From Planctomycetota bacterium (GTDB taxonomy: Bacteria > Planctomycetota > UBA1135 > UBA2386), in NCBI GenBank assembly GCA_016872675.1, contig VGZG01000031.1, positions 1 through 38,675 of the forward strand: 38,675 nt of DNA, read 5' to 3'. The notes beneath the pieces are model-generated. The model was not told the origin of the DNA, did not search any database, and saw nothing but the letters and a program-made list of their open reading frames with translations. How positions within the stretch are numbered: position 1 is the first letter of the stretch; each line of letters begins with the position of its first letter. This document shows, piece by piece, positions 2,681 through 38,675 of this stretch. The position numbers were made by a program, and so were the translations under genes.

Positions 2681-3967
2681 TCAGCCCTTCCGCTTCTGGT
2701 TCTGCCCCGGCATCGGCACCGGATCGACCGGCAGCGGCCCCAACTCGTAGCTGTCGGGCCCCCACTTCTCGTCGCTGGCCATCGCCTGCTCCCAGGTGAC
2801 CTCCTGGCCGGAGTAGGTCGCCATGCGGCCCATGATCGCGGTGAGCGTGCTCTCGGCGACCATGCGCGCCTCCGAGAAGGGCTTGCCGGCGCGGATCGCG
2901 GCGAACAGGTCGTCGTGCTCGCTCTGGTACGGATCGTTGTTCGGGCCCTGGTGCTGCCATGGCTTGTCGCCGGTGATGCGCCAGCCGTTGCCCATGTGGG
3001 CCTCGCCGTTCGTGCCGTAGACGTGCTCGCTGACGTCGTTGGCGCAGCCGTCGATCTGGCGGCACTCCGAGAAGCACCACGCGCCGTTGGCGTACTGATA
3101 CTGGATGGCGTGGTGGTCGAAGATGTGGCCGAACTTGGGGTCGGTGCGGACCTGCCGGCCGCCCATGCCGCGGCAGCGCGTCGGATGCGCCTGCATCGCC
3201 CAGTTGACGACGTCGAGGTTGTGCACGTGCTGCTCGACGAGGTGGTCGCCGGACAGCCACGTGAAGTACAGCCAGTTGCGCAGCTGCCACTCCATGTCGC
3301 TCATCTCCGGCTGGCGCGCGACATGCCACAGGCTGCCCTGGTTCCAGCTGCAGCGCGCGAACAGCAGGCGACCGAGGTCGCCGCCGTGGATGCGATTCAT
3401 GATCTCCAGGTAGCCGTTCTGGTGGTGCCGCTGCAGCCCGCTGCACACCTTGAGGCCTAGCTTGTCGGCGGCTTCGGCGGCGGCGAGCACGCGGCGCACA
3501 CCCGGTGCGTCGACGGCGACCGGCTTCTCGAAGAACACGTGCTTCTTCGCCTTCACCGCCGCCTCGAAGTGCGCCGGCCGGAAGTGCGGCGGCGTCGCCA
3601 CCAGCACGACGTCGCAGTTGCTCGCCATCACGCCGAGGTACGCGTCGGGGCCGACGAAGCGGCGCTCCTTCGGCACGTCGACCTTCTGCTTGAAGGCCTC
3701 GTTCTCGCCGAGGCTGTCGAGGCAACCCTCCAGCCGCTCGCCGAACATGTCGGCGACGGCGACGACGCGCGTCAGGCCCTTGGTCGAGAGCGCCTGGCTG
3801 ATCGCGCCGCTGCCGCGGCCGCCGCAGCCGACGAGGCCGATGCGGACCTCGTCGTTGCCTTGGCCTTGCGCCAGCGGGTCGCGGCCGGCGGCGAGCGAGC
3901 GAGAGAGGCTCTGGGCGGTCGCCGCGGCGGCGGCCGCGTAGAGGAACGAGCGGCGGGACGTGGTCAT
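2681..3967 (-). CDS. Gfo/Idh/MocA family oxidoreductase, Tat-exported
   Basis: A 428-residue NAD(P)-dependent oxidoreductase. The N-terminus (TTSRRSFLYAAAAA) is a twin-arginine signal, so the folded protein is probably exported. The Rossmann fold shows GLVGCGGRGSG at 45-54 and the family's EKPV motif at 147-150; the C-terminal half contains GDHLVEQHVHNLDVVNW, typical of the exported bacterial group of this family. Such proteins usually act on sugars or sugar derivatives, but the substrate cannot be read from the sequence. It follows the SUMF1-type gene on the same strand after 56 bases, which suggests cotranscription. No convincing Shine-Dalgarno lies before the ATG, but the Tat motif fixes the start. 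Confidence 0.93.
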   Translation of the reverse strand: MTTSRRSFLYAAAAAATAQSLSRSLAAGRDPLAQGQGNDEVRIGLVGCGGRGSGAISQALSTKGLTRVVAVADMFGERLEGCLDSLGENEAFKQKVDVPKERRFVGPDAYLGVMASNCDVVLVATPPHFRPAHFEAAVKAKKHVFFEKPVAVDAPGVRRVLAAAEAADKLGLKVCSGLQRHHQNGYLEIMNRIHGGDLGRLLFARCSWNQGSLWHVARQPEMSDMEWQLRNWLYFTWLSGDHLVEQHVHNLDVVNWAMQAHPTRCRGMGGRQVRTDPKFGHIFDHHAIQYQYANGAWCFSECRQIDGCANDVSEHVYGTNGEAHMGNGWRITGDKPWQHQGPNNDPYQSEHDDLFAAIRAGKPFSEARMVAESTLTAIMGRMATYSGQEVTWEQAMASDEKWGPDSYELGPLPVDPVPMPGQNQKRKG

Positions 3968-5203: not shown

Positions 5204-8176
5204 ATGCTCGCACGCACCACCTTCGCCACAGCGCCGATCGCCGCGTTCGCCGTCATCGCGCCCGCCAGCGCGCAGGATCCCGCCGCCGCGCACCCCCGCT
5301 ACGTCGATGCCAGCGCGGTCGCGAACGCCGCGCCGACGGCCGCCGTCGCCGCCGCGTGGGACGAGTTCACGCGCGCACACGGCACGGCCTGGATCGCACA
5401 GTGGCACGCGCCGACCGGCACGCCGCGCGCGATCTTCGGCCACGGCTACGAGTTGGCGGATTGGCGCGGCGCGAGCGAAGCCGAGGCGCGCCGGCACGCG
5501 CACGCCGAACTGCAGCAGCACGCGGACCTGCTCGGGCTCGGCGCGAGCGACTTCGCCGAGACGATCGGCGCGCGCATGGGGCGCACGTGGACCTTCACCT
5601 TCCGCCAGTCGTTTCGCGGCCTCGAGGTCGTCGGCGGCCGCGCCGACGTGCGCATCCACATGGTCGGGCGGCTCGTGCACCTCGGCAGCACGGCGTGGCC
5701 GGTGCCGGCGGACTTCGACGTCACGCCGAAGATCGGCGAGGAGGTCGCGACGGCGCAGGCGTGGCTGTTCCTCGGGCGCGAACCCGTGGCCGGCCCGCAG
5801 CCGGGCAAGGCGCGCGCGCCGCGCCTCGTGGTCTGGGGCGACGACGCGGCGACCGCGCCGGGCGACGTCCGGCTCGCCTGGGAGGTGCCGGTCAGCGCCG
5901 TCGCTGCCGACGGCACGGGTCCGGTCGGCCGCGTCTACGTCGACGCCCGTACTGGCCAGGGCCTGAGCTTCCGCAACGACAAGCACGAATGCGGCCTCCC
6001 CGGCTGCGCCGTCGACGGCGGCGCCGAGCTCGCGCGCAGCGCGCCGCTGCCCGTGCCGACGACGGTCACCGTGCGCGGCTGGTCGCACACCAGCTTCTCG
6101 CCGGTGTCAACGCCGACCAACCCGCCGCTGCCCGGCGTCCGCGTCGTCGTGCCGGGCCACGGCGTGCAGACCACCGACCAGAACGGCCAGTTCACCATCG
6201 ACATCGCGGCGCCGCTGCAGGTGACCGCTCAACTCGACGGCCAGCACTGCAACCTCGTGTTCGGCGCCAACGCGCCGGTCGCAACGGGAACCATCCAGCC
6301 GGGCGTGGCGACGACGCTGCAGTTCGCCGCCGCCAACGCCGGCGAGCAACCGCTCGCGCACACGACGACGTACTACTGGACCGACCGCATCAACGCGTGG
6401 GCCCGCAGCATCCTCGGCAACTCGCCGCAACTTGCCGTCGCCGACGACGTGCAGCCGACCGTCAACCTGGCGAGCACCTGCAACGCGTACTACGTCGGCA
6501 ACTCGATCAACTTCTACGCCTCGGGCGGCGGCTGCAACAACACGTCGGCGGCCTCGGTCGTGGCGCACGAGTGGGGCCACGGCCTCGACGACCAGTACGG
6601 CGGCATCTCGCAGACCAACGGCCTCAGCGAAGGCTGGGGCGACATCTGCAGCATATACCTGCTCGACGACCCGCAGATCGGGCACGACTTCTTCAGCAAC
6701 GGCGGCGGCATCCGCAACGGCACCAACACGCGCCAGTATCCGAGCGGCTCGGGTCCGCACGCGCAGGGCGAGTCGTGGATGGGCTTCGCCTGGAAGTTCC
6801 GCGAGATCCTGCGCACGACCTTCGGCACGCCGCAGTCGATCACGTTGAGCAACAACATCGTGCTGGCCTCGATCGCGGCGAACGCGCAGAACCAGCCCGA
6901 CGCGGTGATCGCCGCCTTCCAGGCCGACGACAACGACGGTCTGCTCGCCAACGGCACGCCGCACTACGCCGAGCTGGTCGCCGCGTGCAACCTGCACAGC
7001 CTGCCGTATCCGCCGATCGTTCCGGGCTACGTCCAGAACGGCACCGTGCTCAGCTCGACGTTCGACCAGGGCCTGCCACGCCGCGTCGAGGTCGAGGCGG
7101 TGCCGGTGACCGGCTCGTTCGCGCAGGTGCGCGTGCACTGGACGACCGGCAACGGCGTCTGGCAGCAGCGCGCGATGATCCCGACGGGCGCTGCCAACCG
7201 CTACCAGGCGCTGCTGCCCGGTCAACTGGCGCCGGTCGTGACGCAGTACCACTTCGAGGCGCAGCACGCGTCGGGGCCGACGTTCCGCCTCCCGGTGAAC
7301 AGCGAGACCGGCTACCTGACGCAGAGCGAGATGCGCATCTGGCGCGAGAACTTCGAACAGGGTGGCGTCGGCTGGACGCATGGCGCGACCACGGGCGTCG
7401 ACGACTGGCAGATCGGCGCGCCGGCGGGCGGTGGCGGTTTCGGCTGGAGCGACCCGACGACGGCGGCGAGCGGCACGCAGTGCGCCGGCACCAACCTGTC
7501 GGCGAGCGGCGCGTACCCGCTGTCGACCGATTCGTGGCTGCGCAGCCCGCCGGTCGACTGCACCGGATACTCGTCGGTGCGCGTGCGCATCAAGCGCTGG
7601 CTCAGCTGTGCGGGCCCGAGCGACCGGCTGGAGCTGCGCATCGGCGGCGTGCTGACGTGGGCGACCGCCTACGCGCCGGTCAACGACGCCGGCTGGGTGA
7701 CCTTCGACACCATGGCGCCCAACGGCGGCAACAACCCGGCGCTGGTCGTCGAGTTCCGCCTGCTAAGCGACGCGAACATCGCGTACGGCGGCTGGCAGAT
7801 CGACGACGTCGAGGTCTACACGCTGACCGTGCCGGTCGCGCCGCCAGCGCGCCTGAGCCTGGCGCCGGAGCAGGCCGCGCAGGGCACGACGGTCACGCTC
7901 CAGGTGACGACGCCGGCGGCTGCGCCGTTCCTGCTGCTGCTCGGCGACGCGCCAGGGCCGACGCAGATTCCGTTCGCGGGCGTGCCGGCGCTGCGCGCGG
8001 GCGGCAACCTGATCCCGCTGTTCGGCGCGACGGACGCGCAAGGCGTGTTCTCGGCGACGTTTCCGTCGCCGATCGCGCCGGCTGCGGGATCGCCGTGGTG
8101 GAGCCAGGCGGTGACCCTCGACGCGCAGGGCGCGATCGTCGCCACCAACCCGTTCCTCAACCTATTCACGCAGTAG
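5204..8176 (+). CDS. Secreted zinc metallopeptidase with HEWGH motif (thermolysin/fungalysin-like)
   Basis: A 990-residue secreted peptidase. The ATG at 5204 gives a signal peptide (MLARTTFATAPIAAFAVIAPASAQ). Residues about 90-250 resemble an FTP-type propeptide (RGLEVVGGRADVRIHM). The zinc site reads HEWGH at 455-459 with third ligand Glu476 in LSEGWGD, as in gluzincins of the M4/M36 type. A short beta domain (about 285-345) interrupts propeptide and catalytic parts. After the peptidase domain comes a jelly-roll of the MAM or choice-of-anchor kind (about 705-855, NFEQGGVGW ... GGWQIDDVEVYTL), then a beta tail of about 110 residues like those of the other secreted proteins here. It is divergent from the SUMF1 gene (160 bases between starts) and lies 49 bases before hflK. 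Family placement between M4 and M36 is uncertain. Confidence 0.9.
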   Translation: MLARTTFATAPIAAFAVIAPASAQDPAAAHPRYVDASAVANAAPTAAVAAAWDEFTRAHGTAWIAQWHAPTGTPRAIFGHGYELADWRGASEAEARRHAHAELQQHADLLGLGASDFAETIGARMGRTWTFTFRQSFRGLEVVGGRADVRIHMVGRLVHLGSTAWPVPADFDVTPKIGEEVATAQAWLFLGREPVAGPQPGKARAPRLVVWGDDAATAPGDVRLAWEVPVSAVAADGTGPVGRVYVDARTGQGLSFRNDKHECGLPGCAVDGGAELARSAPLPVPTTVTVRGWSHTSFSPVSTPTNPPLPGVRVVVPGHGVQTTDQNGQFTIDIAAPLQVTAQLDGQHCNLVFGANAPVATGTIQPGVATTLQFAAANAGEQPLAHTTTYYWTDRINAWARSILGNSPQLAVADDVQPTVNLASTCNAYYVGNSINFYASGGGCNNTSAASVVAHEWGHGLDDQYGGISQTNGLSEGWGDICSIYLLDDPQIGHDFFSNGGGIRNGTNTRQYPSGSGPHAQGESWMGFAWKFREILRTTFGTPQSITLSNNIVLASIAANAQNQPDAVIAAFQADDNDGLLANGTPHYAELVAACNLHSLPYPPIVPGYVQNGTVLSSTFDQGLPRRVEVEAVPVTGSFAQVRVHWTTGNGVWQQRAMIPTGAANRYQALLPGQLAPVVTQYHFEAQHASGPTFRLPVNSETGYLTQSEMRIWRENFEQGGVGWTHGATTGVDDWQIGAPAGGGGFGWSDPTTAASGTQCAGTNLSASGAYPLSTDSWLRSPPVDCTGYSSVRVRIKRWLSCAGPSDRLELRIGGVLTWATAYAPVNDAGWVTFDTMAPNGGNNPALVVEFRLLSDANIAYGGWQIDDVEVYTLTVPVAPPARLSLAPEQAAQGTTVTLQVTTPAAAPFLLLLGDAPGPTQIPFAGVPALRAGGNLIPLFGATDAQGVFSATFPSPIAPAAGSPWWSQAVTLDAQGAIVATNPFLNLFTQ

Positions 8177-10135: not shown

Positions 10136-10182
10136 GCGCGCGCCTGGCCGCGCGCGCGGCGGTATGGTCGGCGCACCTCAAC

Positions 10183-10187
10183 AGGAG
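10183..10187 (+). promoter_or_regulatory. Shine-Dalgarno for the TIM-barrel gene
   Basis: AGGAG lies six bases before the ATG at 10194. It favours that start over one 30 bases upstream in the same frame. Confidence 0.7.
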
Positions 10188-10193
10188 CAGACC

Positions 10194-11099
10194 ATGCAAC
10201 GCCGCACCTTCCTCGCCGCCAGCGGCGCGGGCCTCGTCGCCAGCGCCATCCCCGCCGACTCCCTCGCTGCCGCAAGCGCCCGCCGCGGCGAGCCGTTCCA
10301 GCTGAAGTACGGCCCGCACTTCGGCATGTTCGGCAACCACGCGAAGTCCGACGAGGACCAGCTGAAGTTCGCCTTCGACGAGGGCTTCCGCGCCTGGGAG
10401 GACAACGGCATGGGCGGCCGGTCGCCCGAGGACCAGGAGCGCCTGGGCAAGGTCATGAAGGACCTCGGCATCACCATGGGCGTGTTCGTCGCGCACGGCG
10501 ACTTCGGCGCGCCGACGTTCGCGTCCGGCAAGAAGGAGCACGCCGACCGCGTGCTCGCCGACATGAAGAAGGCCGTCGAGGTCGCCAAGCGCGTGCACGC
10601 CAAGTGGTGCACCGTGGTGCCGGGCAGCGTCGACCATCGCCAGGACTGGGGCTACCAGATGGCCAACTGCATCGAGCTGCTCAAGCGCTGCTGCGAGATC
10701 GTCGCCGAGGCCGACCTGACGATGGTGCTCGAGCCGCTCAACTTCCGCGACCACCCGGAGCTGTTCCTGACCAAGGTCGCGCAGGGCTACGAGATCTGCC
10801 GCGGCGTCGGCAGCAAGCACTGCAAGATCCTCGACGACCTGTACCACCAGCAGATCACCGAGGGCAACCTGATCCCCAACATCGACCGCGCCTGGAGCGA
10901 GATCGGCTACTTCCAGGTCGGCGACAACCCGGGCCGCTGCGAACCCGGCACCGGCGAGATCAACTACCGCAACGTCTTCCGCCACATCCACAAGAAGGGC
11001 TTCCAGGGTGTGATGGGCATGGAGCACGGCAACGCGCATGGCGGCAAGGACGGCGAGCGCCTGCTGATCGACGCGTACCGCGCGGCAGACGCGTTCTGA
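10194..11099 (+). CDS. Hydroxypyruvate-isomerase-like TIM barrel (AP endonuclease 2 superfamily), Tat-exported
   Basis: A 301-residue xylose-isomerase-like TIM-barrel protein. The N-terminus MQRRTFLAASGAGLVASAIPA has a twin-arginine motif (RRTFLA), so export is likely. Family features are the opening PHFGMFGNH, the conserved LEPLNFRDHPELF with the metal-binding Glu, a His/Asp-rich stretch (CKILDDLYHQQ, NIDR) and the terminal GVMGMEHGN with a second Glu. Homologues are often annotated as hydroxypyruvate isomerase (Hyi-like), but exported planctomycete members are uncharacterised and the substrate is likely a sugar or sugar acid. It lies 58 bases after hflC and converges on the fused flavoprotein gene. 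Confidence 0.88.
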   Translation: MQRRTFLAASGAGLVASAIPADSLAAASARRGEPFQLKYGPHFGMFGNHAKSDEDQLKFAFDEGFRAWEDNGMGGRSPEDQERLGKVMKDLGITMGVFVAHGDFGAPTFASGKKEHADRVLADMKKAVEVAKRVHAKWCTVVPGSVDHRQDWGYQMANCIELLKRCCEIVAEADLTMVLEPLNFRDHPELFLTKVAQGYEICRGVGSKHCKILDDLYHQQITEGNLIPNIDRAWSEIGYFQVGDNPGRCEPGTGEINYRNVFRHIHKKGFQGVMGMEHGNAHGGKDGERLLIDAYRAADAF

Positions 11100-16923: not shown

Positions 16924-17394
16924 TCAGGGAAAAGGCAGCTGGACATAGACGTCCGGCAGGTCCCATCGGAGGGTGATCGAGTACAGGACGGGTGGGAAAC
17001 CATCGGCGTCGACCTCGACCAGCACATCTGCCTCGTCCTCGTAAAACTCCGGGTAGAGCATGGCGCGGCCGATGCCGTCCTCCCGGAAACCGACGTCCTG
17101 CCAGGACAACATGTACTCGTCGAGAAACACCAGGCCGTCGGCATCGGTCAGGAAGACATCCTGGTACGGGCTGTCGTAGTAGCTGTCCGACCACTCCTGG
17201 TAGGCCTCCAGCACGCGCACGCGGACGGCGGGCAGCGGCAGACCGCTCACCGCGTCCACCACCTCGACGAGGATCGAGACCGGCCGCGGCTCGAGCGGCG
17301 GGAGCGGCGGCGGGTCGCAATTGGAGTGGCCGCAGGCGGCGGACAGCAGCACGGCGAGGCTGGCGAACAGGCGGCGGAGAGGGGTCGGGGTCAT
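16924..17394 (-). CDS. Putative lipoprotein with carboxypeptidase-regulatory-like (Ig-like) domain
   Basis: A 156-residue protein with a lipoprotein signal: basic N-terminus, hydrophobic stretch ASLAVLLSAA and Cys21, followed by a proline-rich linker (DPPPLPPLEPRP). Residues about 38-156 begin SILVEVVDAVSGLPLPAVRV, which resembles the start of CarboxypepD-regulatory-like Ig folds. The rest is very acidic and rich in Tyr (EYMLSWQDVGFRED, YPEFYEDEADVLVEVDADGF). That suggests a surface- or periplasm-exposed beta domain; function is unknown. It lies between the M3 remnant and the frameshifted orphan, so this stretch appears rearranged. Base composition looks slightly less GC-rich than in neighbouring genes. 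Confidence 0.75.
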   Translation of the reverse strand: MTPTPLRRLFASLAVLLSAACGHSNCDPPPLPPLEPRPVSILVEVVDAVSGLPLPAVRVRVLEAYQEWSDSYYDSPYQDVFLTDADGLVFLDEYMLSWQDVGFREDGIGRAMLYPEFYEDEADVLVEVDADGFPPVLYSITLRWDLPDVYVQLPFP

Positions 17395-27454: not shown

Positions 27455-29230
27455 TCAGAAGCCGACCGAGATCGTGGTGCCGTTCGACGACGCGAGGTTG
27501 AGCGGCGTCGCCAGCGACAACGCGACCGCCTGCGCCGTCAACGACGCGCCGGCGAGCGCCGGGTTCGCCGGGATAGCGAACGGCAGCGTGCCGGTGCCGG
27601 CTGCGACCGGCGCGGTCAGCGAGCCGAGGTCGGCGCTCGTGTAGCTGAAGCAGCCCGGCATGCCGATCGCGGCCAGCGGGAAGCCCGGGTTGACGGCCGC
27701 GGTGCCGAAGAAGACGAACGCCAGCGGCAGCAGCGGCGCGACGTTCGACACCGTGAAGCCGAACGCGGCGTTGCCGACTGTCGGCAGGCCGTTGTTGGCG
27801 AGCGCGAGCGACGGGAGGTCGACGCCGTTGATCACAAAAGCCACCACGGTCGACAGGTCGATGCTGCCCGGATCGAGACCAGCGCCCGGACCCGAGTAGC
27901 CGACGATCCAGCCTTCGGCGCCCGGCCAGGTGCTGATCGACACCGTGTCCATCGACTGGAACACGAAGGCGACATCGCCCGTGGCGAGGTAGAACTGGAA
28001 CTGGAAGGTGCTCGGCGTCGCGCCGGGCGCCTGGCCCTGGTAGCCGATGACGTTGTCCCACGTGATGTAGGCGACGCCGCCGATCTCCTCGAACTTGACG
28101 TTGCCGTTGGCGTTGCAGATGAAGTCGCGCCACACCGCCCACGTCGGGTTGGTCCAGCCGAGGAACTCGCCGGGCGTCGGCGTGTAGTCGCCTGCGGCGC
28201 CGTTGCTGGCCGTCGCGACGTGGCCGTTGGAACCGACCGTGAGCGTGGTCGTCGTGCCGCCCGGGAACGAGAACGGCGCCGACAGGGTCACCGTGCCCTC
28301 GGTGTCGTCACCGAGGCCCAGGTTGGTCGCGGCGGCCGACGGCGCGACGAACGGCGTGCCGGCGTTCGGCACCACGGCGTAGCCCGAGCCGTTGTTGAAC
28401 ATGCGGAACGACTGGTTCGACAGGTCGATCGACGGCGTGGTCAGGAAGCGCTCGTAGTACGACGACAAGGCGCCACCGCAGCCCTGGCCGAAGGTCGTCG
28501 CCGAGGCGCAGCTGCCCGACGGGCCGAGCAGCACGTACGACCAGCCGGGGCTGCTCGGGATCATGAGTAGGCGGTTGTTCGCCATGTCGAAGGTGTTGGC
28601 GACGACGAAGTTCTCAAACGTGTTGTTGTTGACGGATGCGCCCCCCGTCGAGAGGTCGCTACTGGCTGGCAGCACGCCGCCGGCGAACATGCCGACGATG
28701 CCGTTGTCGCTGACGCCTCCGAACGTCGAGTTGTTGGTCACGCCCGGGCCGTAGTCGAACTGCACCTGGCCGGTGATCGACAGCGTCATCGCGAGGTTGA
28801 ACTCCAGCGCCGGGAAGCCGTAGCTGGCCGCCCGCCGCCACTCGATGCGGCACTCGGTCGCGGTGCTGTTGACGTAGCAACCGGCGCCCGGCGTGGGGCT
28901 GCCGCCGACGGTGTCGGACCACATCGCGGCGATCTTCGGGCCGCCGGCCGCGAAGTTGGCCAGCGACGGCGTGTAGACGAACGGCGTCGCGGCCGGCGGC
29001 GTCGGCACGCCACCGTTCGACAGGAAGACGATGCCGTGGTCGGACACGTGCACGTCGGTGTAGGTCGCGCCGTCGAACGGGAACGAGAAGCCGATCGGCT
29101 GCGCCGGGTAGATCGTGTCCATGGCGTTGCCGAGGAACGTGCCGGCGGCCGGGCCGCTGAAGCAAGTGGAACTCTGCGCCGCGGCCGTGGCGGCGAAAAC
29201 TAGAGCCGGAAGCAAGAATGCGTTTCGCAT
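27455..29230 (-). CDS. Large secreted protein with two related beta-sandwich domains and planctomycete-type tail
   Basis: A 591-residue secreted protein; the start at 29230 gives signal peptide MRNAFLLPALVFAATAAAQ. Residues about 30-235 form a first domain (IGFSFPFDGATYTDVHVSDH, GGPKIAAMWSDTVGG, VQFDYGPGVTNNS). Residues about 300-480 form a second of similar plan (FSFPGGTTTTLTVGSNGHVA, PTWAVWRDFICN, VAYITWDNVIGYQ, GDVAFVFQSMDTVS). Both resemble nidogen-like beta-sandwich domains, suggesting an internal duplication. A cysteine-containing linker (SGSCASATTFGQGCGG) separates them. The last ~110 residues carry the tail AIGMPGCFSYTSADLGSLTA, ending in TTISVGF, similar to the BNR-repeat neighbour. 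No catalytic motif is visible; binding or structural function is inferred. No Shine-Dalgarno is seen. Confidence 0.88.
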   Translation of the reverse strand: MRNAFLLPALVFAATAAAQSSTCFSGPAAGTFLGNAMDTIYPAQPIGFSFPFDGATYTDVHVSDHGIVFLSNGGVPTPPAATPFVYTPSLANFAAGGPKIAAMWSDTVGGSPTPGAGCYVNSTATECRIEWRRAASYGFPALEFNLAMTLSITGQVQFDYGPGVTNNSTFGGVSDNGIVGMFAGGVLPASSDLSTGGASVNNNTFENFVVANTFDMANNRLLMIPSSPGWSYVLLGPSGSCASATTFGQGCGGALSSYYERFLTTPSIDLSNQSFRMFNNGSGYAVVPNAGTPFVAPSAAATNLGLGDDTEGTVTLSAPFSFPGGTTTTLTVGSNGHVATASNGAAGDYTPTPGEFLGWTNPTWAVWRDFICNANGNVKFEEIGGVAYITWDNVIGYQGQAPGATPSTFQFQFYLATGDVAFVFQSMDTVSISTWPGAEGWIVGYSGPGAGLDPGSIDLSTVVAFVINGVDLPSLALANNGLPTVGNAAFGFTVSNVAPLLPLAFVFFGTAAVNPGFPLAAIGMPGCFSYTSADLGSLTAPVAAGTGTLPFAIPANPALAGASLTAQAVALSLATPLNLASSNGTTISVGF

Positions 29231-29348
29231 GGAGAAAGCAACGAGTGAGGGAATTACGGAAGGAGTCGCCGGAAGCGATCGAGCGACCAAAGAGCACTCC
29301 GGCCGGGCAAGATAACTCGTTGGCGGCAAAGGATGCGGTCCTTCGTTG

Positions 29349-29368
29349 TCATGCGGTCGACCGCATGA
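29349..29368. promoter_or_regulatory. Perfect 20-bp palindrome
   Basis: TCATGCGGTCGACCGCATGA is identical to its reverse complement. It lies 119 bases upstream of the start of the large secreted protein and 30 bases beyond the end of a minus-strand protein-like fragment. It has no T-tract, so a dimeric-regulator operator is more likely than a terminator. Confidence 0.35.
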
Positions 29369-29397
29369 ACGACTCGCGAGGGCCATTGGCCGACGCC

Positions 29398-29607
29398 TCA
29401 CGACAGGTCGTACTTCCACCCGGCCTCCATGCGCGCGCCGAACTCCGTATCGAAGCGGCCGTACTGGCGCACCACCCCCGAGCGCTCGCCGCGAACGTTG
29501 ATTGTGCGCCCGTCGGCATCGGTCCCCTTGAAGCCGTGGCCAACGGTGCTGACGAGGTCCCCCTGCCGCCCCACATAGTGGCACTCGACATAATCTGTCC
29601 GGCTAAT
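29398..29607 (-). pseudogene. Short protein-like fragment or small gene, unrecognised
   Basis: The minus-strand frame ending at 29398 reads ISRTDYVECHYVGRQGDLVS, then TVGHGFKGTDADGRTINVRG, and closes GRFDTEFGARMEAGWKYDLS. It is balanced in composition and unlike the Arg/Ala/Pro-rich noise of antisense frames here, so it looks like a real coding remnant of about 60-70 residues. A GTG at 29574 could start a 58-residue protein, but no ribosome binding site is seen, and upstream the frame runs antisense into the BNR gene. The C-terminal part with alternating aromatic residues could be the end of a beta-rich protein. I do not recognise the family. The rest of the 391-base gap 29231-29621 holds only the palindrome and no other gene. 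Confidence 0.35.
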
Positions 29608-29621
29608 CTGCCTCTTCTCCC

Positions 29622-32333
29622 ATGCGGCCCCTCCTCGCCGTTGCCACGACGCTCTGCGCACTCTGCGCCGCTGCATGGCACTGGCCGACCGCCGTCGACG
29701 CTGCGGCGCTGCGCGCGCCGATCCAGGAGCGCAAGGACGCCAACAAGGCGCGCGAGCGCGCGAACGGTCGCAGGCGCGCTCCCGATGCCGTGCCAGGCGG
29801 CCCGGACGAAGCCCGGCTGTGGCGGCTCGAACGCATGCAGGACGAGACCGGCGCGTTCCAACCGGACGCGCTTGCCGCCGCGAAGGCGGAGTGGCGGCTG
29901 AACGCCGCGTACCACGACAGCCTCGACAACGCCGGCATCGGACGCTTCGGCTGGGTCGAGCGCGGCCCGAGCAACCTCGGCGGGCGCACGCGCAGCCTCG
30001 TCGTCCACCCGACCAATCCCAACGAGATGTGGGCGGGCGCTGTCGGCGGCGGCGTGTGGAACTCGACCAATGCCGGCGTCAGCTGGGCGCCGGTCAACGA
30101 CCACGTCGGCAACCTCGCGGTCTGCAGCCTCGCGCTCGCGCCGACCACGCCGCTGACCATCTACGCCGGCACCGGCGAAGGCTTCTTCAACGGCGACGCG
30201 ATCGTCGGCGACGGCGTCTACAAGTCGAGCGACGGCGGCGCGACGTTCGCCCGGCTGCCGGCGACCGCGTCCTGGGACTACGTCAACCGCATCGCCGTCT
30301 CGCCGGCCAACCCGTCGCTGCTGCTCGCGGCGACGCGCAGCCCCGGCGGCATCCACCGCAGCGTCGACGGTGGCCTGATGTGGGCCAACGTCCGCATCGC
30401 GGACAACTGCCTGCAGGTCGCCTTCGACCCCAACGACGGCAGCAGGTGCGTCGCCGACGTGTACGAGGGCGGCGCCCACCGTGTCGTCTACTCAACCAAC
30501 GGCGGCCTGACGTGGGCCAACACCGCGACGGGCCTCGTCAACCAGCCCGGCATCGACGGGCGCATCGAGCTCTGCTACGCGCGCAGCGTGCCGAACATGG
30601 TCTACGCCTCGTGCGGCACCAATGGCGGCATCATCTGGCGTAGCATCGACGGCGGCGTGAACTGGGCCCCGCGCACGACGTCGGCCGGCTCGGGCGCCGC
30701 GTGGTACTACAACACGCTCTGGGTCGACCCGACGGACGCCAACTTCCTGGTGACCGGCGCGTACCACCTCTACAAGTCGGCCGACGGCGGCGCGACGCTG
30801 ACGCAACTCAGCAACGGCTACATCAACACGGCGCAGCCGCATCCCGACCAGCACCAGATCGTCGCCGATCCCGGCTTCAACGGCGTCACCAACCGCCGCG
30901 TCTACGTCACCAACGACGGCGGCGTCTACGTGACCGCCGACATTCGCGCGGCGAGCGTGACCACCGGCTGGACGCGCCGCGACCAGAGCTACCGCACGAC
31001 GCAGTTCTACGGCGCCGCCGGCGACGGCCCGACCGGCAAGCTCACGGGCGGCACGCAGGACAACGGTCACCTCACGATCGCCGCCAACAGCAACGTCGCC
31101 ACGCTGACGTTCGGCGGCGACGGCGGCTTCGCCGCGATGGACGCGCAGAACGCCAACTACATCTACGGCGAGTACGTCTACGCGCAGGTCCATCGCTCGA
31201 CCAACGGCGGCAGTTCGGCCAGCTACATCGACGGCGGCATCACCGAGGCCGGCAGCGCCGCCAACTTCATCGCGCCGCTGCTGCTCGACCCGTCGGACCA
31301 GCGCCGGCTCTACGTCGGCGCGGCGAGCCTCTGGCTCACGAGCGACGCGCGCGCGGCGACCGTGGCGTGGTCCAACGTCAAGCCGGCCGTCGGCTCCTAC
31401 ATCGCGGCGATCGCGGTCGCCCCGAGCGACCCCAACGTCGTGTGGGTCGGCCACAACGACGGCCGTGTCTTCAAGACCAACAACGCGCTCGCCGCCGCGC
31501 CCACCTGGGTCGCCGTCGACGACAACGGCGCGGCCAACCCGCTGCCCAACCGCTACGTCTGCCGCATCCTGATCGACCGCACGAACCCGCAGGTCGCGTT
31601 CGTCGGCCTGGGCGGCTTCGCCGGCGACAACCTGCGCAAGACCAGCAACGGCGGCGCGTCGTTCGTCGACGTCACCGGCGCCGGCGCGACCGGCCTGCCG
31701 ACGGCGCCCGTCTACGGCATCGCGCAGCACCCGCAGGATCCGGCGTACCTGTACGTCGGCACCGCCGTCGGCATCTACGCGTCCGACGACGGCGGCGCGA
31801 CCTGGTCGACCAGCAACGACGGCCCCGCCGACGTCTCGGTCGACGAAGTGGTCTTCCTCAACAACTCGACGACGCTGCTCGCGGCGACGCATGGTCGCGG
31901 CCTGTGGACGATCGCGCTGCGCGAGCCCGTCGTGGCCCAACTGGGCCCGGGCTGCGCCGGCTCGTTCGGCACGCCGACGCTCACCGCGTCGTCGCCCGAG
32001 CTCGGCAAGCCGGTCGCCCTGCGCTGCGCCAACCTGCGCCCGGGGCAGCAGGGCCTCTTCGCGCTCGGCGTGTCGTCCACTTCCTACCTCGGCTCGCCGC
32101 TGCCGCTCGACCTGATCGTGTTCGGCATGCCCGGCTGCTTCGCGCGCACGAGCGCCGAGTCGCTCGTGATCGGCACGAACAGCAACGGCATGCTCGAGAC
32201 GACGATCCCGATGCCGACCGCGTCGGCGACGCTGGGCTTCCAGTTCTTCGTCCAGGCCTTCAGCCAGGACCCGCTGGTCAACGCCTTCGGCGCGGCGGCC
32301 AGCAACGCGCTGGCGCTGACCGTCGGCAACTGA
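29622..32333 (+). CDS. Secreted BNR/Asp-box beta-propeller protein (sortilin/GH74-like)
   Basis: A 903-residue secreted protein. A signal peptide (RPLLAVATTLCALCAAAWHW) is followed by a charged region and, from about residue 108, a beta-propeller with many Asp-box motifs: SSDGGATF, SVDGGLMW, STNGGLTW, SIDGGVNW, SADGGATL, TNDGGVYV, SDDGGATW. This pattern occurs in sortilin-like VPS10 domains and in GH74 xyloglucanases; paired catalytic Asp residues of GH74 cannot be assigned confidently, so an enzymatic role is open. The last ~130 residues (QLGPGCAGSFGTPTLTASSP ... LIVFGMPGCF ... SNALALTVGN) are the tail shared with other secreted proteins here. CATAAT at 29589-29594 could be its -10 box, but I see no matching -35. 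Confidence 0.9.
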   Translation: MRPLLAVATTLCALCAAAWHWPTAVDAAALRAPIQERKDANKARERANGRRRAPDAVPGGPDEARLWRLERMQDETGAFQPDALAAAKAEWRLNAAYHDSLDNAGIGRFGWVERGPSNLGGRTRSLVVHPTNPNEMWAGAVGGGVWNSTNAGVSWAPVNDHVGNLAVCSLALAPTTPLTIYAGTGEGFFNGDAIVGDGVYKSSDGGATFARLPATASWDYVNRIAVSPANPSLLLAATRSPGGIHRSVDGGLMWANVRIADNCLQVAFDPNDGSRCVADVYEGGAHRVVYSTNGGLTWANTATGLVNQPGIDGRIELCYARSVPNMVYASCGTNGGIIWRSIDGGVNWAPRTTSAGSGAAWYYNTLWVDPTDANFLVTGAYHLYKSADGGATLTQLSNGYINTAQPHPDQHQIVADPGFNGVTNRRVYVTNDGGVYVTADIRAASVTTGWTRRDQSYRTTQFYGAAGDGPTGKLTGGTQDNGHLTIAANSNVATLTFGGDGGFAAMDAQNANYIYGEYVYAQVHRSTNGGSSASYIDGGITEAGSAANFIAPLLLDPSDQRRLYVGAASLWLTSDARAATVAWSNVKPAVGSYIAAIAVAPSDPNVVWVGHNDGRVFKTNNALAAAPTWVAVDDNGAANPLPNRYVCRILIDRTNPQVAFVGLGGFAGDNLRKTSNGGASFVDVTGAGATGLPTAPVYGIAQHPQDPAYLYVGTAVGIYASDDGGATWSTSNDGPADVSVDEVVFLNNSTTLLAATHGRGLWTIALREPVVAQLGPGCAGSFGTPTLTASSPELGKPVALRCANLRPGQQGLFALGVSSTSYLGSPLPLDLIVFGMPGCFARTSAESLVIGTNSNGMLETTIPMPTASATLGFQFFVQAFSQDPLVNAFGAAASNALALTVGN

Positions 32334-36911: not shown

Positions 36912-38675
36912 TTACAGGATCGTGAACGACGTCGTCGGCGACGTCTCCTCGGCGATCTCGGCGAGCGTCAGGTCGATCGTCACCATCGCCGCGTGCACCG
37001 GCAGGCCGGTCAGCCACGGCAGGTTGGGAATCGCCAGCACGGCGTTGGCGCGGCCGTTGGCGCCGAGCACGCCGGCGAAGCCGGGCAGCGACAGGCTGAG
37101 GTCGGTGACGCCGTCGTAGCCGAGGTCGAGCACCTTCTTGGGGCCGACCTGCGTCGTCGCCGGCGACGGCGTGATCGACAGCACCGCGAGGTAGCTGGCG
37201 CCCGGGTGGTAGACGTCGACGAACTCGTAGTTCGCCGTGCCGCCGGGGATCTTGCTGCCGGTCACCACGACTTCGTTGGTCGCGGCGTCGCGGCGCGTGC
37301 ACCACGCCAGCGCCAGCGGCTCGCTCGCGCCGAGGAAGCGCTGGTTCTGCAGGCGGATCGTGTACGTGCCCGTCTGCGGCGGCACGAACTGCACGAGCTC
37401 GAACGGGTTGGCCGCGCTCGCCGACGTCGCCACCAGCGTGCCGCCGAACCACACCGTCAGGTCGAGATCCATCTGCAGCACGTCGGTCGCGTACGCCGAG
37501 TCGGCCTGCGAGAACCAGACCGCGCACAGCCGCGTCTCGTCGCCGCGGACGAGCGGCACGCTGACGCTGTACTGGCCGCCGGCGAAGCTGCCCGGCGTCA
37601 GCACGACGCGCTGGAACTGCCCCTTCGCCGCCGCCGCCTGCGACGCTGCCGCGTCGACGTGGCCGGCGCCGTCGCGATCGCTCATCGCCGCAGCGCCCTC
37701 GACGTTGTGGAACGCGCCGGCCATCAGCAGCGCGCGCACCGTCTCCGGTTGCGCCTGCAGCACGGGGACCGTCTGCGCCAACAGCGCGGCGATGCCGCAC
37801 GTGACCGGCGAGGCGTACGACGTGCCCGAGCCCTGCGCGCCGATCCACGGCGACGCCGTCGTCGTGGTGGTGATCGTGGTGCCGCAGGCGGTGACCTCCG
37901 GCTTGTCGTGGCCCTCGATCGGGTTGACCCAGCTCGACGACGACGACATCGCGTCGCCGCCCCAGTCGAGGGTGTTGTTGTCGGTGGCGTTGCCCGACGC
38001 CGTCATGTTGAAGCCGCAGCCGGGCGTGGTGATCAGCCCGTCCGTGCCGCCCTGGTTGCCCGACGACTTGAACAGCATCACCGCGAACGTGCGGATGACG
38101 TAGTCGAAGTAGCGGTCGAGGAACTGGATCTGGCCCTTCTGGCCGTTCCACCACGAGCAGTTGCCGAAGCTGATGCCTTGCTGCATGCCCCACGCCCACG
38201 CCTGCGGCGCGCTGGTGTCGCCAGCGGCGCCGTAGCTGTAGAGCTGCGCGAGGCCCGGCGCGGCGCCGGTGTGCGGCGATTGACGCGAGGCGACGATGCC
38301 CGCGACGGCGGTGGCGTGCGCGGCGGCGGTGCCGGTGTTGCCGGCGACGATCGGCGGCAGGAACGGGTTGGTCGTCGCGACCGGCGCGGTGTCGTTGATC
38401 AGCACCTTCACGCCAGCGCCGTCGACGCCGCGGCGGTGCACGGCGTCGGTGCGGGCCGTGCGGCTCGCCCACTCGTTGAACGCCGCCAGCGACGCGAGCG
38501 ACGCAGCGCCGCCTTCGTCGAGCGACACCGGCGACGACCAGTACGCGAGGTCGACGTCGGCGCGGCCGGCGAGCTGGCGCGCGAGCGCCTCGCCGCAGCG
38601 CACGAACACGACCGGCGTCAGCGTGTCGCGGTAGGTCACCTCGCCGCCGAGCGCACTGGCCGTGGCGGCGAACGC
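36912..38675 (-). CDS. Subtilisin-like serine protease (S8), N-terminus beyond the window
   Basis: At least 587 residues of a second S8 peptidase; the frame is open to the right edge, so the signal peptide and most of any propeptide lie outside. The triad is visible in order: Asp in GVKVLINDTAP, His in NTGTAAAHATAVAGIVASRQ, oxyanion Asn in FKSSGNQGG and Ser in GSGTSYASPVTCGIAALL. The C-terminal ~250 residues are beta-rich: a jelly-roll of PPC type (MDLDLTVWFGGTLVATSASA, TGTYTIRLQNQRFLG) and a final domain ending TSPTTSFTIL. It differs from the first subtilase in its HATAVAG histidine motif and lacks the shared GMPGC-type tail. Likely secreted; the substrate is unknown. Confidence 0.9.
   Translation of the reverse strand, partial: AFAATASALGGEVTYRDTLTPVVFVRCGEALARQLAGRADVDLAYWSSPVSLDEGGAASLASLAAFNEWASRTARTDAVHRRGVDGAGVKVLINDTAPVATTNPFLPPIVAGNTGTAAAHATAVAGIVASRQSPHTGAAPGLAQLYSYGAAGDTSAPQAWAWGMQQGISFGNCSWWNGQKGQIQFLDRYFDYVIRTFAVMLFKSSGNQGGTDGLITTPGCGFNMTASGNATDNNTLDWGGDAMSSSSSWVNPIEGHDKPEVTACGTTITTTTTASPWIGAQGSGTSYASPVTCGIAALLAQTVPVLQAQPETVRALLMAGAFHNVEGAAAMSDRDGAGHVDAAASQAAAAKGQFQRVVLTPGSFAGGQYSVSVPLVRGDETRLCAVWFSQADSAYATDVLQMDLDLTVWFGGTLVATSASAANPFELVQFVPPQTGTYTIRLQNQRFLGASEPLALAWCTRRDAATNEVVVTGSKIPGGTANYEFVDVYHPGASYLAVLSITPSPATTQVGPKKVLDLGYDGVTDLSLSLPGFAGVLGANGRANAVLAIPNLPWLTGLPVHAAMVTIDLTLAEIAEETSPTTSFTIL

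Follow-up and report, generated by a model that had tools for sequence, protein, structure and literature searches.

A C-terminal domain shared by exported proteins with unrelated bodies in Planctomycetota, probably a sorting label that directs its carriers to secretion or to the cell surface

The window analysed here, a stretch of 38,675 nucleotides that forms contig C31 of a 3.58 Mb planctomycete genome (G000; 182 contigs, 95% complete), encodes secreted proteins of very different kinds whose C-terminal ends look alike. The locus raises the question of whether these tails belong to one domain and what such a domain could do for the proteins that carry it. An earlier note had claimed that four secreted proteins share a C-terminal module, with GMPGC in two of the tails and the endings LTVGN, SVGF and TMGN. 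The four genes are present, those at 104–2461 and 27455–29230 on the minus strand and the other two on the plus strand; the motif and the endings were found as described (Table 1), and profile comparison confirmed the shared module.

Tails of the window and of the genome

Pairwise alignment of the four tails supported only some of the pairs. For two of the six, none of 500 shuffles reached the real score, whereas for the pair 5204–8176 and 27455–29230 it was reached by 384 of 500 shuffles; pairwise alignment was therefore rejected as too weak to be the sole proof of homology, and a profile was needed to decide. When the 131-residue tail of 29622–32333 was compared with its own genome, 37 places were obtained at E ≤ 10 including the tail itself, 34 of them at E < 0.002, and most of the matches that were read out ended at or near a stop codon. 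Profile A1 was built from 22 own-genome tails, including that of 29622–32333 and none of the other window tails. Run against the own genome, it gave 92 matches at E ≤ 1, which include those to the tails of 27455–29230 and 104–2461 and one at 36954–37274 on the minus strand; the tail of 5204–8176 was missed by the uniterated A1 in this search and required iteration. The iterated model, in which A1 was extended with own-genome carriers and still contained none of the four other window proteins, scored each of their tails above the best of 500 shuffles of its own sequence (Table 1), with 5204–8176 as the weakest family member. A six-frame scan of the window with this model (frames of at least 80 residues, E ≤ 0.01) gave exactly five matches, corresponding to the four named proteins and a fifth carrier. 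The genome-wide profile search, offered by the earlier note as the check on its claim, thus found the tails to be homologous: the five window tails are one domain family, and this family is larger than first described, with the fifth tail and 89 own-genome frames outside the window.

Table 1. Tail carriers of the window, with their C-terminal domains and predicted signal peptides (bits refer to the iterated model; the best score among 500 shuffles of the same tail is given in brackets)
Feature	Position	Strand	Details
Secreted S8 (subtilase) carrier	104–2461	−	Translation; Peptidase_S8 E 1.5e-23
C-terminal domain of 104–2461	107–478	−	Ends LKMTMGN; A1 E 3.0e-7; 32.1 bits (11.9)
Predicted signal peptide of 104–2461	2408–2461	−	Ending A|Q; by eye
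Secreted metallopeptidase-like carrier	5204–8176	+	Weak: Peptidase_M4 E 0.43; M36-type NCBIfam E 0.0031, far below cut-off
Predicted signal peptide of 5204–8176	5204–5272	+	Ending A|Q; by eye
C-terminal domain of 5204–8176, most divergent member	7868–8173	+	Profile match 7868–8131; 20.7 bits (10.9); pLDDT 67.2
Secreted carrier without Pfam match	27455–29230	−	Translation, Pfam comparison
Predicted signal peptide of 27455–29230	29177–29230	−	Ending A|Q; by eye
C-terminal domain of 27455–29230, short subtype without GxGC opening	27458–27811	−	GMPGC, ends SVGF; A1 E 7.9e-18; 76.3 bits (8.5)
Secreted beta-propeller (Sortilin/BNR-like) carrier	29622–32333	+	Sortilin-Vps10 E 1.1e-11
C-terminal domain of 29622–32333	31932–32330	+	GxGC, GMPGC, ends LTVGN; structure-model query, pLDDT 96.9
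Fifth carrier, S8 peptidase cut by contig end, absent from earlier list	36912–38675	−	Peptidase_S8 E 5.1e-12
C-terminal domain of fifth carrier	36915–37277	−	A1 match 36954–37274, E 3.6e-4; 22.3 bits (14.8)

For the census of the own genome, 85 stretches around A1 matches were scored with the iterated model; the seven of the 92 matches that were left out comprised four in the window, two with internal stops and one in a 40-residue frame, and frames were pooled when their last 40 residues were identical. The 89 distinct frames outside the window that carry the domain each hold a single copy (89/89). Among the 86 frames with a stop codon, the domain lies no more than 4 residues from the end in 64 and no more than 25 in 78, the exceptions being five frames with 33–40 residues after the domain and three with 172–378. 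The former (L112, L118, L144, L148 and L152) may represent a subtype extended beyond the domain. L145 and L151 depart most clearly from the terminal position, with a well-scoring domain situated 367–378 residues before the end of frames whose gene boundaries are uncurated. Likewise, 29 of 31 matches in named relatives end 0–4 residues from the stop, as do all 20 hand-picked best matches from other families of the phylum (0–3 residues), which are not a random sample. One distant carrier (L201) bears a second, weak copy of the domain.

The bodies to which the tails are attached are unrelated, as the earlier note had proposed. The comparison of 72 of the 78 complete frames together with four window proteins distributed these 76 carriers over 33 body similarity groups, the largest with 37 members under single linkage. 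At E ≤ 1e-3, 751 pairs of tails were similar to each other, and in 634 of these the bodies showed no similarity at that level. For instance, the tail of 27455–29230 is 55% identical to the tail of a carrier whose body falls in another group. In the Pfam run, which covered 67 of the 78 complete frames (the 11 left out include L145, L151 and L160), these 67 carriers matched 38 families, including PKD, kelch, di-haem peroxidase, lamin-tail, S8 and M14 peptidases, sulfatase and CotH, among others.

Anatomy and predicted fold of the domain

The domain measures about 130 residues, with reference sequences of about 100–150. A rough consensus drawn from A1 and A5 reads GxGCxG..GxP...P.LG......N.P...G...G.S....PLPxDL..LGMPGCxL..S.D......A.... 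in its first part and continues directly with IPN.PAL.GF....Q...LDP..NAFG...SNG.....G. In alignment A5, composed of 32 tails, P57, L60, C68, G101 and Q107 are invariant and eight more positions are near-invariant (P21, G24, G64, G67, P94, D112, G119 and G131). In the more diverse alignment A7, which holds 94 of 118 listed references, only G21, P91, G98 and Q104 are conserved in more than 90% of the tails, none of them in the loop between strands 3 and 4; this loop (PLPxDLxxxGMPGC) contains five of the 13 positions that are best conserved in A5. The C-terminal end is variable, with 14 kinds of last residue and a glycine among the last four residues in 44 of 77 tails. Regarding the cysteines, that of MPGC is present in all 32 rows of A5 and that of GxGC in 25, and 18 of the 32 aligned tails have exactly two, which could form a disulfide.

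AlphaFold2 modelled the tail of 29622–32333 (132 residues) as nearly all beta, with a pLDDT of 96.9 and a pTM of 0.89. The strands span residues 15–18, 27–32, 40–45, 76–79 with 81–83, 86–91, 103–111 and 120–129, that is, seven when the broken pair 76–79/81–83 is counted as one, and the long loop at 46–75 is the site of the PLPxDLxxxGMPGC motif. For the tail of 5204–8176 the model was less confident (pLDDT 67.2), but its six strands can be placed in the same order. Foldseek returned nothing from the PDB at E ≤ 0.001, and the best VIA-align matches were Ig domains, with a top Z of 8.1 for an antibody VL; the PDB matches were weak and mixed. On this account the fold looks Ig-like in the model, and none of the chains that were compared is a closely related solved structure.

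The domain is absent from the protein-family databases that were searched, Pfam and NCBIfam. The 32 tails matched one family of Pfam-A at E ≤ 1 and three of NCBIfam, each through one tail only and with E no better than 0.011; these matches are chance-like and none is to a CTD model. A search of the domain profile against PDB sequences likewise gave chance-like matches only, the best being complement C3 at E 0.028, and no T9SS CTD appeared at E ≤ 10. No paper describing the domain was found among the open-licence PMC papers listed, which does not prove its absence in print.

Export signals and distribution across the phylum

A start resembling a signal peptide was found in 63 of the 78 complete carriers with a home-made rule and in 55 of the 78 with a stricter one, compared with 11 of 346 internal Met positions. 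The remaining 15 of the 78 complete frames, whose starts are uncurated, have no signal-like start. Among 20 distant carriers, 15 have such a start and five have none (starts uncurated, and two of the 20 frames incomplete at the 5′ end). The highest 19-residue hydropathy was 1.37–1.74 in the five window carriers, whereas two other proteins of the window reached 2.12 and 2.50. Two window proteins, at 2681–3967 and 10164–11099, which from their starts (SRRSF and QRRTF; labelled by eye) we take to be twin-arginine-like, show no tail match, which agrees with a tag carried by Sec cargo. A lipoprotein-like gene of the window (16924–17394, also labelled by eye) shows no match either. Elsewhere, L199 and L200 (genomes G054 and G051) begin by eye like lipoproteins, their hydrophobic stretch being followed by a Cys, and to judge from these sequences the tail may occur on lipoproteins too.

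The carriers' signal peptides show a further feature, a glutamine after the cleavage site. AQ was found at the expected site in 60 of 63 carrier signal peptides, compared with 123 of 1703 control 17-mers; the beta-propeller protein 29622–32333 is an exception to this rule. With a second gene caller and the pattern A/S/G/C then Q, the count was 47/49 among the tail carriers of G000 and 17/17 among those of L058–L081, as against 4/14 and 9/19 among their other signal-like genes, a noisy set. Stretches from five f8 genomes poor in tails showed the same pattern in 5/24 cases, the tail-rich G050 showed it in 4/24 signal-like genes (1 of 2 tail carriers seen), and the glutamine rule held for 11 of the 15 signal-like starts of distant carriers. 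These counts tie the rule to the window's family and not to the tail itself. It resembles the Q-rule of Bacteroidetes, which co-occurs with T9SS according to PMC5837995; the main text of PMC5837995 and PMC10653852 does not mention planctomycetes. Type I glutaminyl cyclase was found in 5 of 61 genomes, none of them in the window's family.

A scan with a strict tail pattern placed 23 of 24 loci in Planctomycetota, including entries labelled Planctomycetia, Phycisphaerales and Kuenenia, and one in an entry labelled "bacterium". The first profile detected tails in 56 of 61 genomes, namely our own and its relatives (copies per genome counted among at most 69 scored candidates). At the level of the order, A7 at E ≤ 0.001 detected tails in 30/30 genomes, with 7 to at least 144 per genome, at most 144 candidates being scored in each. 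Across 294 genomes of the phylum, 42 were positive with A5 at E ≤ 1e-6, and 56 were positive and 238 negative with A7 at E ≤ 1e-5. With 14 candidates scored per genome, 54 of the 56 A7-positive genomes hold at least 4, 41 hold at least 10, and two hold no more than 3. The control PKD_4, an ordinary extracellular domain, was found in 225 of the 294 genomes, 104 of which hold no more than 3 copies (at most 17 candidates scored per genome). The tail distribution is thus many-or-none across the phylum, unlike that of PKD_4, and this is the pattern expected of a tag with a dedicated reader.

Candidate partners and possible roles

The search for such a reader, in the form of co-occurrence with a dedicated partner as the earlier note had proposed, returned none. 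G000 encodes an exosortase, and one was detected in 46 of 61 genomes, namely in 43 of 47 tail-rich and 3 of 14 tail-poor relatives as classified by the first profile, a comparison confounded by kinship (families f5 and f8); with A7, the "tail-poor" genomes also carry 7–32 tails. It was not found in eight genomes with 10–142 tails, all of them incomplete assemblies (87–93%), and it was rejected as a required partner for this reason. The tail seems not to require exosortase, although its copy number goes with exosortase presence. In G000 the exosortase (L187:14270–16108, G000:C27) forms one frame with DUF3485 and adjoins a polysaccharide-export gene and a Wzz-like gene, the latter below its cut-off. 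SprA (TIGR04189) was found in 0 of 61 genomes at E ≤ 0.001 with a model that also had no match in 14 control genomes; at E ≤ 0.01 it gave short partial matches in 3 of 294 genomes, with 0 over the cut-off and no positive control. Finally, the type II secretin gave no distinction: GspD-like matches occur in 61/61 genomes, none over the curated cut-off, and are uninformative on the partner.

The closest functional likeness is to the cargo of T9SS, which, as described in PMC11285876, ends in a seven-strand Ig-like domain. The CTDs of RgpB, HBP35, PorU and PorZ are, like the tail in its model, C-terminal Ig-like beta-sandwiches, and T9SS cargo shares with the tail carriers a Sec signal peptide and diverse bodies in what has been described of it. 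In the P. gingivalis CTD, PMC11285876 reports that the loop between strands 3 and 4 and the C-terminal motif are needed for secretion, and that the loop motif is not conserved in T. forsythia cargo; the tail has a conserved loop at the same place in A5 and not in A7. The tail is larger (about 100–150 residues, against the 67–108 given for T9SS CTDs in PMC11285876) and, unlike a T9SS CTD, it has GxGC and PLPxDLxxxGMPGC and a less conserved C-terminal end; its conserved sites G101 and Q107 have no parallel in the CTD description of PMC11285876. We hold, by analogy, that the tail would work like a T9SS CTD, but we do not file it as one because it has no match to a CTD model, SprA was not found in its Planctomycetota hosts (an uncontrolled search), and a 2016 survey reported T9SS only in Bacteroidetes (PMC4793230).

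PEP-CTERM with exosortase, GlyGly-CTERM with rhombosortase and MYXO-CTERM with myxosortase resemble the tail in being lineage-limited C-terminal tags on dozens of exported proteins. All three are short tags that contain a transmembrane stretch, and MYXO-CTERM has a tripartite plan. Tags of the PEP-CTERM type have a transmembrane stretch and a basic end, whereas the tail is by its model a soluble beta domain and lacks this make-up. Autotransporters (type V) end in a membrane beta-barrel, whereas the tail, with its sandwich-like model of 132 residues, offers neither a barrel-sized domain nor a Pfam barrel match. Ig-like and PKD extracellular domains and carbohydrate-binding modules are, like the tail, beta-sandwiches on secreted proteins; PKD_4 occurs at 1–3 copies in many of its genomes, whereas the tail mostly occurs once per protein and at its end, with a many-or-none distribution.

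Taken together, the tail probably labels its carriers for secretion or for attachment to the cell surface. We give a probability of about 0.52 to its being a C-terminal sorting domain that is functionally like a T9SS CTD and forms a distinct Planctomycetota family. According to this reading, the carrier would be exported by Sec through its N-terminal signal peptide, as its sequence suggests, and a machine of the outer membrane, common to all carriers and serving secretion or surface attachment, would recognise the Ig-like tail in the periplasm, perhaps via the loop that joins strands 3 and 4. This machine would then move the body outside or keep it on the surface; the carrier may also be cleaved or anchored. 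The sorting-domain reading is weakened because no machinery was found among the candidates searched, the Ig fold is common, the loop is not conserved in A7, and the C-terminal end is variable. The frames that run on past the domain, the second weak copy in L201, the carriers that lack a signal-like start and the two lipoprotein-like carriers also count against it. The wider proposal is that the tail is the cargo signal of a new system in Planctomycetota for secretion or surface display at the outer membrane, functionally equivalent to T9SS and serving from fewer than 10 to far more than 100 proteins per genome; it is tentative and falls somewhat short of an even chance. The lineage-specific secretion or anchoring signal of the earlier note is partly supported: the single terminal copy, the unrelated bodies, the signal-like starts, the high copy numbers in the order and the many-or-none distribution fit a sorting tag, which may serve secretion or anchoring, and a dedicated partner was not found among the candidates searched.

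Alternatively, the carriers could leave the cell by another route, with the Ig-like tail serving, like a CBM, to retain them by binding an exopolysaccharide, the surface layer or an envelope polymer. Many carriers are of extracellular types that would suit this role (peptidases, sulfatase, kelch and other propellers, PKD, glycosidase-like), and both the position of the exosortase beside a polysaccharide-export gene and its kinship-confounded excess in tail-rich genomes would agree with it. However, binding modules are usually also internal and multi-copy, whereas here one copy per frame is the rule and nearly all copies are terminal; the most conserved residues of the tail are Gly, Pro, Cys, Leu, Asp and Gln rather than aromatics, and the many-or-none distribution also argues against binding. 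We regard this explanation as unlikely, though the most serious of the rivals. A structural cap or intramolecular chaperone, aiding the folding and protease resistance of large beta-rich exported proteins and shielding the C-terminus by its end position, would fit a small, confidently modelled, Cys-bearing domain on very different bodies, but gives no reason why some genomes should have more than 100 carriers when 238 of 294 have none detected, and appears improbable. Least probable of all, though not negligible, is a highly diverged true T9SS in which the tails are its CTDs and the system has drifted beyond the reach of the SprA model. The fold is of the same kind, the Q-rule extends to the carriers' signal peptides, and HBP35 of P. 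gingivalis, a T9SS cargo, was a weak Foldseek match among many (5y1a, rank 27, E 0.012); against it, 0 of 32 tails match a T9SS CTD model at E ≤ 1, the PDB profile search returned no such CTD, and SprA stayed at 0/294 over the cut-off in a search with no positive control.

A single domain on up to more than 100 exported proteins per genome offers a way into the secreted and surface proteins of these planctomycetes, and many unannotated proteins can be labelled as exported by their tail. Owing to the many-or-none distribution across the phylum, comparative genomics can be applied directly to look for the missing machine; the PEP-CTERM paper (PMC1569441) speaks of phylogenetic profiling to the same end. 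In the genomes of family f5, some of the neighbours of tail genes are conserved.
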